The position numbers were made by a program, and so were the translations under genes. Below are positions 32,459-48,767 of a stretch of 64,000 bases of DNA, piece by piece. How positions within the stretch are numbered: position 1 is the stretch's first letter; each line of letters starts with the position of its first letter. The notes beneath the pieces were generated by a model. That model made no database searches, was not told where the DNA came from, and worked only from the letters and a program-made list of their open reading frames with translations. Source of the DNA: Hyphomicrobiales bacterium (GTDB lineage Bacteria > Pseudomonadota > Alphaproteobacteria > Rhizobiales > Beijerinckiaceae); NCBI GenBank assembly GCA_947455025.1, contig CANGLU010000004.1, forward strand, positions 1 to 64,000, in the 5' to 3' direction.

Positions 32459-33727
32459 TTATTGATCAGCTTGAACCGCCGTTACCAAGGGAACACCACC
32501 TAAGCCGTCTTTATTATATATATCATCACGGAACTGGACCAAACCATCAGGCGTTGCCCAAGCCGTTATATAAACCCAAAAAACCGGAACAGGCTTGGCA
32601 AGACGGGCGTCGACGCGCTGACCAGATTGAATGGCCTCATCAATTTGTTCCCGCGCCCACCCCGGCGTGTCCTTTAATAGCCATTCCACATAATCGCGAA
32701 CATTTTGAACGCGCATGCAGCCTGAAGATACAAAGCGATAATCATCGCCAAAAATTCCCTTAGCCGGCGTATCGTGCATATAGACGCCATAGGGATTAGC
32801 GATGTTAATCCGAACAAATCCTAATGAATTGAATTCACCACCGGGATCTTGCCTAAATTGATAGCGGGTTGCCTCGTCACTCTTCCAATTGATTTTTTCA
32901 GACGTGATCTCCTGCCCCTCATTGGTAAAAATCCGAATTTTATTTTCAGCCAAATAGCCAGGGTTGGCCTGCATTTTTGGTATCAAATCTTTTTTGATGA
33001 TGGAGGCCGGAACGGTCCAGAAAGGGTTGAAATTAATATCAATCACCTTCGTGGTCATAATGGGTGATTGACGATCAATTTTACCGACACCCGCCGCATG
33101 GCGGGTCTGAACAACATTGTCTTCAACTGTTTCGACAATCGCACCGGGAATATTAGCCGCTACATAGCGCCTTCCCGGGCTAGCCGAATACGAACGCAAG
33201 CGGACGAGATTGACCTCAAGCTGCTTTAATCGAACATCCGCCGGTATATTCAAAGCGGTAAGGGTTTGGCCTGTGATAAGCCCCGTGGGACGCAAGCCAT
33301 GCAATTCCTGGAAGCGGCGAACGCCGGTTTCTACAAAGGAATCAAAAATATCGGAAAGGCCTGCCGACGCATCGAGATCACCCGACGCAATGAGGCGCTT
33401 CCGTAATTCAATAACAGCCGGATCTTGCATGCCGAGCTTCAACGGTACGCGCGGCATCAGCGGCCAACCACCACGGGCAATGACCTGCCTAAATGTCTCT
33501 ACCGCTGCCTGCGTGGCATTTAAGGTCTCTGGCGACAGAAGAGGTGTCGTTGAGCGGTCAAGCGTTTTAGACGTAGCCGCATCGTAGCTTTGTACCCACT
33601 CCGCCTGATCCGCGGATTCCTCGTCGACGTTTTGAGCTAAAAGGCGCGATGCCATGAATGGCGCTGCAAATATGGCGGCCGTACCAAATAGAAATGCCCG
33701 ACGCGAAAGGCTCGAAAAAAATTGCAT
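32459..33727 (-). CDS. L,D-transpeptidase with peptidoglycan-binding domain (YcbB-like, Tat-exported)
   Basis: Forms 3-3 cross-links or anchors proteins in peptidoglycan. 422 residues. The N-terminus carries a twin-arginine motif SRRAFLF at about 8-14 followed by a hydrophobic stretch and ALA-type cleavage (LLAQ), so Tat export is likely. A peptidoglycan-binding helical domain spans about 95-165 (LRKRLIASGDLD, GVRRFQELHGLRPTG). The YkuD domain spans about 185-390, with H318 and the nucleophile C337 in SSGCMRVQN. It lies downstream of ldtR on the same strand (142-bp gap). In Liberibacter the LdtR regulator controls the neighbouring transpeptidase LdtP; this gene is the counterpart by position and domain content. 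Confidence 0.93.
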   Translation of the reverse strand: MQFFSSLSRRAFLFGTAAIFAAPFMASRLLAQNVDEESADQAEWVQSYDAATSKTLDRSTTPLLSPETLNATQAAVETFRQVIARGGWPLMPRVPLKLGMQDPAVIELRKRLIASGDLDASAGLSDIFDSFVETGVRRFQELHGLRPTGLITGQTLTALNIPADVRLKQLEVNLVRLRSYSASPGRRYVAANIPGAIVETVEDNVVQTRHAAGVGKIDRQSPIMTTKVIDINFNPFWTVPASIIKKDLIPKMQANPGYLAENKIRIFTNEGQEITSEKINWKSDEATRYQFRQDPGGEFNSLGFVRINIANPYGVYMHDTPAKGIFGDDYRFVSSGCMRVQNVRDYVEWLLKDTPGWAREQIDEAIQSGQRVDARLAKPVPVFWVYITAWATPDGLVQFRDDIYNKDGLGGVPLVTAVQADQ

Positions 33728-33755
33728 GAAACTGATTCCACCTGAACTTTGAACG

Positions 33756-33817
33756 CATTATCGCTGAAGACGGTAAAGGAATGCTTTCGCACCCCTTAAC
33801 GTTCAAGGGCGATAATG
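33756..33817. promoter_or_regulatory. spaced inverted repeat between ldtR and the L,D-transpeptidase gene
   Basis: CATTATCGC at 33756-33764 is repeated in reverse complement as GCGATAATG at 33809-33817, 44 bp apart. The nearer arm ends 29 bp before the transpeptidase start and contains GATAAT on the minus strand, a -10-like hexamer. It differs from the palindrome upstream of ldtR, so it may bind another factor or be chance. Confidence 0.25.
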
Positions 33818-33869
33818 AGCCGTGGTTTTGTCAATTTCATGGCCGAAAAGGAAAAAGGACAGGATTGCG

Positions 33870-34382
33870 CTATAGCCTATATTTAACATTGTCGTTGAGG
33901 AACCGTTCTAATCTCAGCAAGATTGTATTGGTCTGACGGAATTCGGTCTCTGAAATTCCCCCAACCTGCTCGACCGTCCTCATGTGCTTGCTATATAGCC
34001 CATCGACAATGTCATGGATGTCTTGGCCCAAATGGGTCAGCCGGATCCGGACCGACCGCCGGTCCGTGCGAGACCTTTCATGGGACAAATATCCCATCTC
34101 AACGAGCTTTTTGACATTATAGGAAACATTGGAGCCCAAATAATATCCTCTGGACCTTAATTCTCCTGCGGTAAGCTCCTTGTCACCAATATTATAGAGC
34201 AGCAAGGCTTGCACCGGATTAACATCAGAGCGACCACGACGATCAAATTCGTCTTTGATAACGTCTAAGAGTGACCGGTGAATTCTTTCAATATTGGAGA
34301 GGGCTTCAAGATAGTAAGGATGGGTAATAGAAATTGAGTTTACCCCAACATCATCCATCGAGATTTTTACAATTTTGTTCAT
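33870..34382 (-). CDS. ldtR: MarR-family transcriptional regulator LdtR
   Basis: A 170-residue winged-helix regulator. The stretch NPVQALLLYNIGDKELTAGEL followed by GYYLGSNVSYNVKKLVEMGYL and the wing RTDRRSVRIRLT is the distinctive wording of the Rhizobiales LdtR group. In Liberibacter and Sinorhizobium LdtR controls an adjacent L,D-transpeptidase and stress tolerance. Here the transpeptidase gene is directly downstream on the same strand. The promoter region holds TATAAT at 34402-34407 (minus strand) and a 32-bp palindrome over the -35 area, which suggests autoregulation. The ATG at 34382 is the only sensible start. Confidence 0.92.
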   Translation of the reverse strand: MNKIVKISMDDVGVNSISITHPYYLEALSNIERIHRSLLDVIKDEFDRRGRSDVNPVQALLLYNIGDKELTAGELRSRGYYLGSNVSYNVKKLVEMGYLSHERSRTDRRSVRIRLTHLGQDIHDIVDGLYSKHMRTVEQVGGISETEFRQTNTILLRLERFLNDNVKYRL

Positions 34383-34401: not shown

Positions 34402-34407
34402 ATTATA
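34402..34407 (-). promoter_or_regulatory. -10 element of the ldtR promoter
   Basis: On the minus strand this reads TATAAT, a perfect sigma-70 -10 hexamer, 20 bp upstream of the ldtR ATG. The hexamer 17 bp further upstream reads TACGTT, a poor -35, and lies inside the palindrome at 34412-34443. A weak -35 under a repressor site is plausible. Confidence 0.55.
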
Positions 34408-34411
34408 CAAC

Positions 34412-34443
34412 CATTACATTACGTAACGTAACGTAATGTAATG
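34412..34443. promoter_or_regulatory. 32-bp palindrome upstream of ldtR, probable LdtR operator
   Basis: The 13-base arm CATTACATTACGT (34412-34424) is exactly mirrored by ACGTAATGTAATG (34431-34443) around the 6-base centre AACGTA. The whole element also reads as 5-bp units: CATTA twice, CGTAA three times, TGTAA twice. It starts four bases upstream of the TATAAT box, covering the -35 region, where a bound MarR-type dimer would block RNA polymerase. Binding by LdtR itself is inferred from position. Confidence 0.65.
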
Positions 34444-34536
34444 TAATTAATTCACGTAAAAGACGAATTAAGATTTAAAATTAACAAATCGTTGCTGTGC
34501 GCCTTGGTAAATCAAGCCACACTTTATTTGATTCAA

Positions 34537-34950
34537 TTAGACTATTTTAATCTGCGTTTCGGAATTAACCCGCAGGAGCAAAACCCGCGCAAAATGAACA
34601 ATCAGCAATAAAATAGAGACGATAATCGGCATAAACGAATTCAGATTCGACCTCTGGATAAGCTCCAAACAAACATACCCGAATGCAACGCAAGCCCATA
34701 CGCCGCTACCCCAACGCCACGAGATCCACAAGGAAACGCCAGCGATAATATCAAGAATTGGCATAACAACCAAAGTAAAAAAGCCGTTCCAGCCGTCATC
34801 ACCCAAGAGATGAAAATCCCCGCTCGGGGTCGTCATCAAATAAAACCATCCCCAATACCCCTTTGCGATCCACGCCAAGGCCAGGAATCGATAGGCCCAT
34901 AAAATTGGCTTATCGGATGTTACGGTTGATGAGCCGAGATGAATTGCCAT
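34537..34950 (-). CDS. small membrane protein, DUF6163-like
   Basis: A 137-residue inner-membrane protein with four hydrophobic segments: about 17-42, 58-78 (FFTLVVMPILDIIAGVSLWIS), 84-98 (VWACVAFGYVCLELI) and 107-127 (MPIIVSILLLIVHFARVLLL). A protein of this type lies between hemB and ldtR in many Rhizobiales and is annotated there as DUF6163; the name is given from memory of that context. Function unknown. It is upstream of ldtR on the same strand (154-bp gap containing the palindrome) and divergent from hemB. Confidence 0.65.
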   Translation of the reverse strand: MAIHLGSSTVTSDKPILWAYRFLALAWIAKGYWGWFYLMTTPSGDFHLLGDDGWNGFFTLVVMPILDIIAGVSLWISWRWGSGVWACVAFGYVCLELIQRSNLNSFMPIIVSILLLIVHFARVLLLRVNSETQIKIV

Positions 34951-48188: not shown

Positions 48189-48767
48189 ATGCCGAATTCT
48201 GAACGTATTGCCTTATTCATTGATGGCGCAAATCTTTACGCAACGGCAAAATCACTTGGATTTGATATTGATTACAAGCGATTATTGAAAGAATATCAAA
48301 CGCAAGGCTATCTCGTGCGGGCGTTTTACTATACCGCCCTTATTGAAGATCAGGAATATTCTTCAATTCGCCCTCTGATTGATTGGCTTGACTATAACGG
48401 CTACCGGGTCGTCACAAAGCCAACGAAAGAGTTTGTGGATTCAGCCGGGCGGCGCAAAGTTAAAGGAAACATGGATATCGAACTCGCGATCGATGCCCTT
48501 GAGCTTGCGCCTTATATCAATAAGGCCATCATTTTTTCCGGCGATGGCGATTTTCGTTCGCTCGTTGAAGCCCTTCAACGTCGCGGCGTTAAAGTGTCCG
48601 TTGTCTCCACGATTAGCTCGAATCCTCCCATGGTGGCCGATGAGTTGCGCCGTCAGGCGGATGAATTCATTGATATCATACAGCTTTTGCCTCGTATCGG
48701 ACGGGAATCGACCGATCGGCCAGCACGTGCGACAGAACCGCGCGACGATGACGATGACGATCTATAA
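48189..48767 (+). CDS. NYN-domain (LabA/DUF88, PIN-like) protein
   Basis: A 192-residue putative ribonuclease. The NYN core is clear: RIALFIDGANLYATAKSLG at about 6-24 with the first Asp, a middle acidic region GNMDIELAIDALELA, and FSGDGDFRSLVEAL at about 118-131 with the second Asp pair. These carboxylates would hold the metal for RNA cleavage. The C-terminus ends in a run of six aspartates (from about 186). The family is conserved beside rpoZ-rsh in Rhizobiales, but the target RNA is unknown. The leader is unusually AT-rich. It is followed 31 bp later by the uracil-DNA glycosylase gene. Confidence 0.88.
   Translation: MPNSERIALFIDGANLYATAKSLGFDIDYKRLLKEYQTQGYLVRAFYYTALIEDQEYSSIRPLIDWLDYNGYRVVTKPTKEFVDSAGRRKVKGNMDIELAIDALELAPYINKAIIFSGDGDFRSLVEALQRRGVKVSVVSTISSNPPMVADELRRQADEFIDIIQLLPRIGRESTDRPARATEPRDDDDDDL

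Follow-up and report, generated by a model that had tools for sequence, protein, structure and literature searches.

Lux boxes are dyad-symmetric sites of about 18-20 bp, and classical ones feature half-sites of the CTG-N10-CAG type. In described LuxR-LuxI systems, an inverted repeat is located at 61.5 nt in a luxI-type promoter of Mesorhizobium japonicum (PMC10470506), and the LuxR-type luxI promoter of Rhodopseudomonas palustris has inverted repeats at -76 and -35 (PMC10305029). Within the Hyphomicrobiales, the acyl-homoserine-lactone (AHL) system MmaI/MmaR of Methylobacterium fujisawaense suppresses swarming, with motility affected via the small protein MmaP and PraR (PMC10790750). Studies of LdtR have so far addressed it as a regulator acting under osmotic stress in Liberibacter and Sinorhizobium. 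The LdtR proteins of both shift their own promoters in gel shifts (PMC3999280), the footprinted Liberibacter sites are A/T-rich, such as ATATTCCTTGTATTTTAA (PMC3999280, PMC5481520), and two studies tie the Liberibacter protein to motility and envelope genes (PMC5892913; PMC5481520).

The window analysed here, a 64-kb stretch from the 2.5-Mb genome (G000) of an uncultured Beijerinckiaceae genus, resembles these LdtR loci in that the gene for an LdtR equivalog, with a palindrome in its promoter, is followed by an L,D-transpeptidase gene (Table 1). The initial annotation had reported a 32-bp palindrome with 13-base perfect arms around AACGTA, four bases from the TATAAT box of ldtR, and this description proved accurate throughout: CATTACATTACGT (34412-34424) and ACGTAATGTAATG (34431-34443) flank AACGTA (34425-34430), and 15 of the 16 pairs are complementary when the element is read as 16-nt arms. 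Its repeat unit is the 5-bp TTACR. When one mismatch was allowed, no other even palindrome in the window approached its half-length of 16 (the runner-up reached 9), and the maximum across 60 dinucleotide shuffles of the window was 13. The window has a single pair of perfect 13-nt arms separated by 6 nt, and the 60 shuffles pooled likewise contain a single one. The core of the palindrome, TTACGTWACGTAA, is a member of a dyad family, TKMCSTWACGTMA, and the nesting of 5-bp units noted in the initial annotation does produce overlapping registers of this dyad. With a matrix built without the ldtR sites, the palindrome was the top-ranked element of the 64 kb (21.9; next non-overlapping match 11.9). 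A weaker match, TTACGCAACGGCA at 48236-48248 (score 11.9-12.5), lies near the start of a 192-aa ORF (48189-48767) and is likely due to chance. We judge it very likely that the palindrome belongs to a dyad regulon extending across the genus, and it is an enlarged member of an operator family that is most likely bound by the LuxR protein of the genus, which would bring ldtR into a quorum-sensing regulon.

Table 1. Features of the ldtR locus in the 64-kb window
Feature	Position	Strand	Basis or remark
ldtR	33870..34382	minus	NCBIfam NF047395 LdtR equivalog, 255.2 bits (cut-off 250)
L,D-transpeptidase, ldtP-like, YkuD + PG_binding_1	32459..33727	minus	Gap of 142 nt after ldtR; upstream region lacks a dyad
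TATAAT box	34402..34407	minus	Four bases from palindrome; exact in two closest relatives only
32-bp palindrome, TTACR units	34412..34443	.	Palindrome search and shuffles
13-bp core dyad TTACGTAACGTAA	34419..34431	.	Best matrix register, 23.1; centre 43 nt before ldtR ATG; lux-box-like
Second register, overlapping	34424..34436	.	Matrix score 16.6
Third register TTACATTACGTAA, overlapping	34414..34426	.	Matrix score 11.3
Fourth register, weak	34429..34441	.	Matrix score 8.9
Upstream element GATTTGTTAATTTTAAATCTTAATTCGTCTTTTACG	34455..34490	minus	Counterpart of family-wide block GATTCAnnCTGTTgTTTAAACTCGTCTTCAT

Comparison of the ldtR upstream regions of close relatives showed that the 13-bp core of the palindrome is conserved but its 32-bp length is not. 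An upstream alignment indicated that G004, G005 and G010 carry a 20-bp version (e.g. ATTACGTTACGTAACGTAAT in G010) and that the window palindrome is exactly 15 bp longer, in 5-bp units, which makes the ldtR operator a fine-scale case of an operator differing by whole units between close relatives. More distant congeners keep the 13-bp dyad alone at the same place, as in G006 (TTACCTAACGTAA) and G009 (TTCCCTAACGTAA), and where its distance was measured, in the window and eight relatives, the dyad lies 38-46 nt before the ATG. In G008, ldtR is split across two contigs and the upstream piece bears TGACCTAACGTAA, while G003 features a variant with one change, CCCTAGCGTCA. The G003 ldtR gene also has an internal TAG, and the luxR frame of this genome looks frame-shifted near the DNA-binding domain, reflecting either assembly error or real decay.

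In a tree of ldtR and ldtP, G007 falls outside the other congeners, and its ldtR promoter is of the family type and has no dyad. Elsewhere in the family, the other genera likewise have no dyad before ldtR; their promoters have another block in common, GATTCAnnCTGTTgTTTAAACTCGTCTTCAT, followed 9-10 nt later by a -10-like CTAnnTT element. In the window, the counterpart of this block is the probable ancestral core promoter region of ldtR. Upstream of ldtR, most of the family shows the wider arrangement GTAAAC-N4-GATTCAnnCTGTTgTTTAAACTCGTCTTCAT followed by CTAnnTT, which resembles tandem TAAAC-N5-ATTCA units; it may represent the true LdtR site or a CtrA-like site.

The dyad was then used for pattern searches of 12 genomes of the genus, which returned recurring 13-mers. 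The pattern TKMCSTAACGTMA gave 103 matches, compared with 15 for a reversed control, and 56 of the 60 exact sites fetched in one round were intergenic according to a simple ORF call. The dyad consists of a core, TKMCSTWASGKMA, with A/T-rich flanks, giving a total of ~19-21 bp with information out to about positions -10 to +10. With the exception of G007, where dyads are almost absent, the genomes of the genus carry it upstream of numerous unrelated genes. Sites recur in several genomes before orthologous genes encoding MotA (PF01618), FliF, FliP, FliR and FlbT, as well as before those for a peptidase M23, a nucleotidyltransferase and a TPR/glycosyltransferase-41 protein (TPR-GT41), and at a divergent gene pair for heavy-metal-binding (HMA) and EAL-like proteins, among others. 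Outside the genus, exact TGACGTWACGTCA was encountered only sporadically in the 41 genera sampled from the family, and the sites read were not located before regulon-type genes; the regulon was therefore taken to be genus-specific.

This distribution also bears on whether the palindrome has a binding function at all. It could instead act as a hairpin in the leader RNA at the 5' end, or be a simple microsatellite expansion. A transcript starting from the family promoter would include the palindrome, whose computed fold has an energy of -22.2 kcal/mol (z -5.8), and the 15 bp by which the window exceeds its closest relatives come in 5-bp units. Most relatives, however, keep the 13-bp dyad alone without long arms, the same dyad recurs at many promoters, and an Rfam search gave no relevant match, all of which makes this explanation very improbable.

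The proposal of the initial annotation, that the palindrome is an autoregulatory site of the MarR-family protein LdtR, fared less well than its description of the element. An LdtR dimer that binds here and represses or activates its own gene would accord with the location of the dyad over the ldtR promoter, with the gel shifts of the Liberibacter and Sinorhizobium proteins, and with the motility and envelope genes tied to LdtR in the studies on Liberibacter, which overlap with the gene classes found here. However, 126 Hyphomicrobiales sequences of LdtR share one and the same recognition helix and much of the wing is invariant across the order, whereas the dyad precedes ldtR in this genus only. 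As the site of a protein with an invariant helix should not be confined to one genus, LdtR is an unlikely binder and was not preferred. The footprinted LdtR sites are, by inspection, unlike TTACGTAACGTAA, and the dyad is shared by many unrelated promoters and is absent from the ldtR promoters of other genera that have the same LdtR helix, where a different conserved block lies upstream. The promoter of ldtP, the main known LdtR target, also has no dyad: none of the best matrix matches falls in the ldtR-ldtP gap (33728-33869), in agreement with the absence of a similar element before the transpeptidase gene recorded in the initial annotation. While the dyad does sit in the promoter with a core conserved in close relatives, we therefore consider autoregulation by LdtR through this site distinctly unlikely.

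Because dyads also preceded LuxR-type genes, the genus was searched for LuxR and LuxI. LuxR (Autoind_bind and GerE domains) and LuxI are encoded in 11 of the 12 genomes, both in each of the 11 relatives of the window genome, although the genes are broken over contigs in some; in G004 they sit between soxG and modB. The nearest solved relatives of the genus LuxR are QscR, CviR, LasR, RhlR and TraR. A dyad precedes luxR or luxI in nine of the 11 relatives that carry luxR, with only a weak match in G003. It lies 72-84 nt before luxR in G004, G005, G006, G008, G009 and G010 and about 93 nt before it in G011, with matrix scores of 14 to 25 across these seven genomes, 58 nt before luxI in G002 (score 14.7) and, more weakly, 84 nt before luxI in G001 (9.8). 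The sites before luxR at contig ends in G006, G008 and G011 were excluded from the matrix used here. Each of these sites tested gave a shuffle p of 0.002-0.006 (smallest possible value 0.002), although the genomes are related and these tests are not independent. As the dyad is found before luxR and luxI at distances known from other LuxR systems, it is most likely the lux box of this genus.

In G000, the assembly of the window itself, luxR and luxI were not found, and their expected place adjoins a contig end. One contig begins inside modB, beside the position where G004 carries soxA-soxG-luxR-luxI, and a DNA-level search of G000 for this segment elsewhere gave a short weak match only. An assembly gap is therefore the simpler and likely reading, with gene loss as a possible one. 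G007 presents a different case, as its LuxR and LuxI genes are present but a matrix scan found no dyad before luxR, luxI or ldtR. Either the regulon postdates the split of G007, which may then reflect the condition that preceded it, or the dyad is bound by another protein. A changed LuxR helix was considered as a companion of dyad loss in G007 and was rejected, since the helices look too alike.

LysR-type boxes are of the form T-N11-A, a length compatible with a 13-bp dyad. The second reading of G007, in which LuxR is present alongside hardly any dyads, would fit an operator for another genus-specific flagellar or cell-cycle regulator, such as a LysR-type, CtrA-partner or FtcR-like protein, with luxRI also under its control. 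The named dyad targets are mostly flagellar genes, a CtrA-like TTAA-N7-TTAA adjoins two dyad sites by inspection, and a regulator controlling both flagella and luxRI could yield the same site map. On the other hand, reading of flagellar and target regions revealed no such regulator, and a dyad before luxR or luxI in nine genomes is the usual autoregulation pattern of LuxR systems. This explanation is unlikely on balance, and binding of the dyad by LuxR is, in our judgement, likely.

If LuxR is the binder, a dimeric LuxR-type AHL receptor would contact the dyad core in a signal-dependent manner, and ldtR would share a quorum-sensing regulon with flagellar, surface-polysaccharide and cell-wall genes. 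The promoter architecture in the relatives gives some indication of the sign of control. At the family-wide position, the -10 element directly adjoins the dyad, and in G006 the last base of a perfect TATAAT before ldtR is also the first base of the dyad. Across gene-oriented sites, TATAAT-like hexamers are enriched just before the dyad, with 23-25 of 82 at offsets -12 to -10 compared with mostly 3-11 at other upstream offsets; a second peak of 22 at offset +7 may be explained by dyad symmetry and the A/T-rich flanks. A bound dimer would thus cover the -10 to start region in relatives, which would favour repression of ldtR, and we lean slightly towards the LuxR-bound state being repressive. In the window, the family -10 position reads TTACAT and the downstream TATAAT would place the dyad near -30, so the sign of control could differ here: both this box and the additional 15 bp might change the effect on ldtR in this genome.

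This organisation parallels the LuxR-LuxI regulons of R. palustris (rpaI) and M. japonicum (I1), as a dyad of comparable extent including flanks precedes luxR or luxI together with motility and envelope genes. It differs from them in having a core without CTG-type half-sites, in being genus-specific, in the expansion of the ldtR copy to overlapping registers and in that LuxR binding is putative here. As the dyad lacks CTG-type half-sites, our claim is limited to function: the dyad most likely works like a lux box, and membership as a classical lux box is not claimed. Compared with the operators of Liberibacter and Sinorhizobium LdtR, the sequence is different and is common to many promoters (PMC3999280, PMC5481520). 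MmaI/MmaR is likewise a Hyphomicrobiales AHL system linked to motility, but in the genus described here dyads lie directly before flagellar genes (PMC10790750). The palindrome thus leads to a testable regulon, in which a short dyad predicts flagellar, polysaccharide and cell-wall genes expected to respond to cell density in this uncultured lineage, and would place LdtR downstream of quorum sensing. In the literature searched, no connection between LdtR and LuxR quorum sensing was found, and none of the papers listed for the letters TGACGT of the motif contained them. More tentatively, the genus may have placed its genes for motility, surface polysaccharides and peptidoglycan remodelling, and with them the otherwise conserved regulator LdtR, under the direct control of a single LuxR/AHL system with a new class of lux box, where the ldtR box would have grown by 5-bp units into a nested operator taking dimers in several registers.

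Several further features were observed around the ldtR locus and the dyad targets. Between ldtR and ldtP, close relatives share two further conserved elements, GGCCATGAAATTGACAAAACC and GCGAAAGCATTCCTTTACCGTC, and ldtP may thus have its own promoter and not depend on read-through alone. A 137-aa ORF between ldtR and hemB (34537-34950, minus strand) has no Pfam or NCBIfam match. One target protein with a MotB-like sequence by eye has no Pfam match, and its gene follows an ABC exporter gene. At five loci, the dyad AACGTCATG overlaps the start codon of a genus-conserved protein of ~116 aa with a signal-like N-terminus, and binding there would therefore cover the translation start. A short protein of unknown function featuring KHAAxxAAKPDARFLVQLIAG also repeatedly has a dyad upstream, at four loci.
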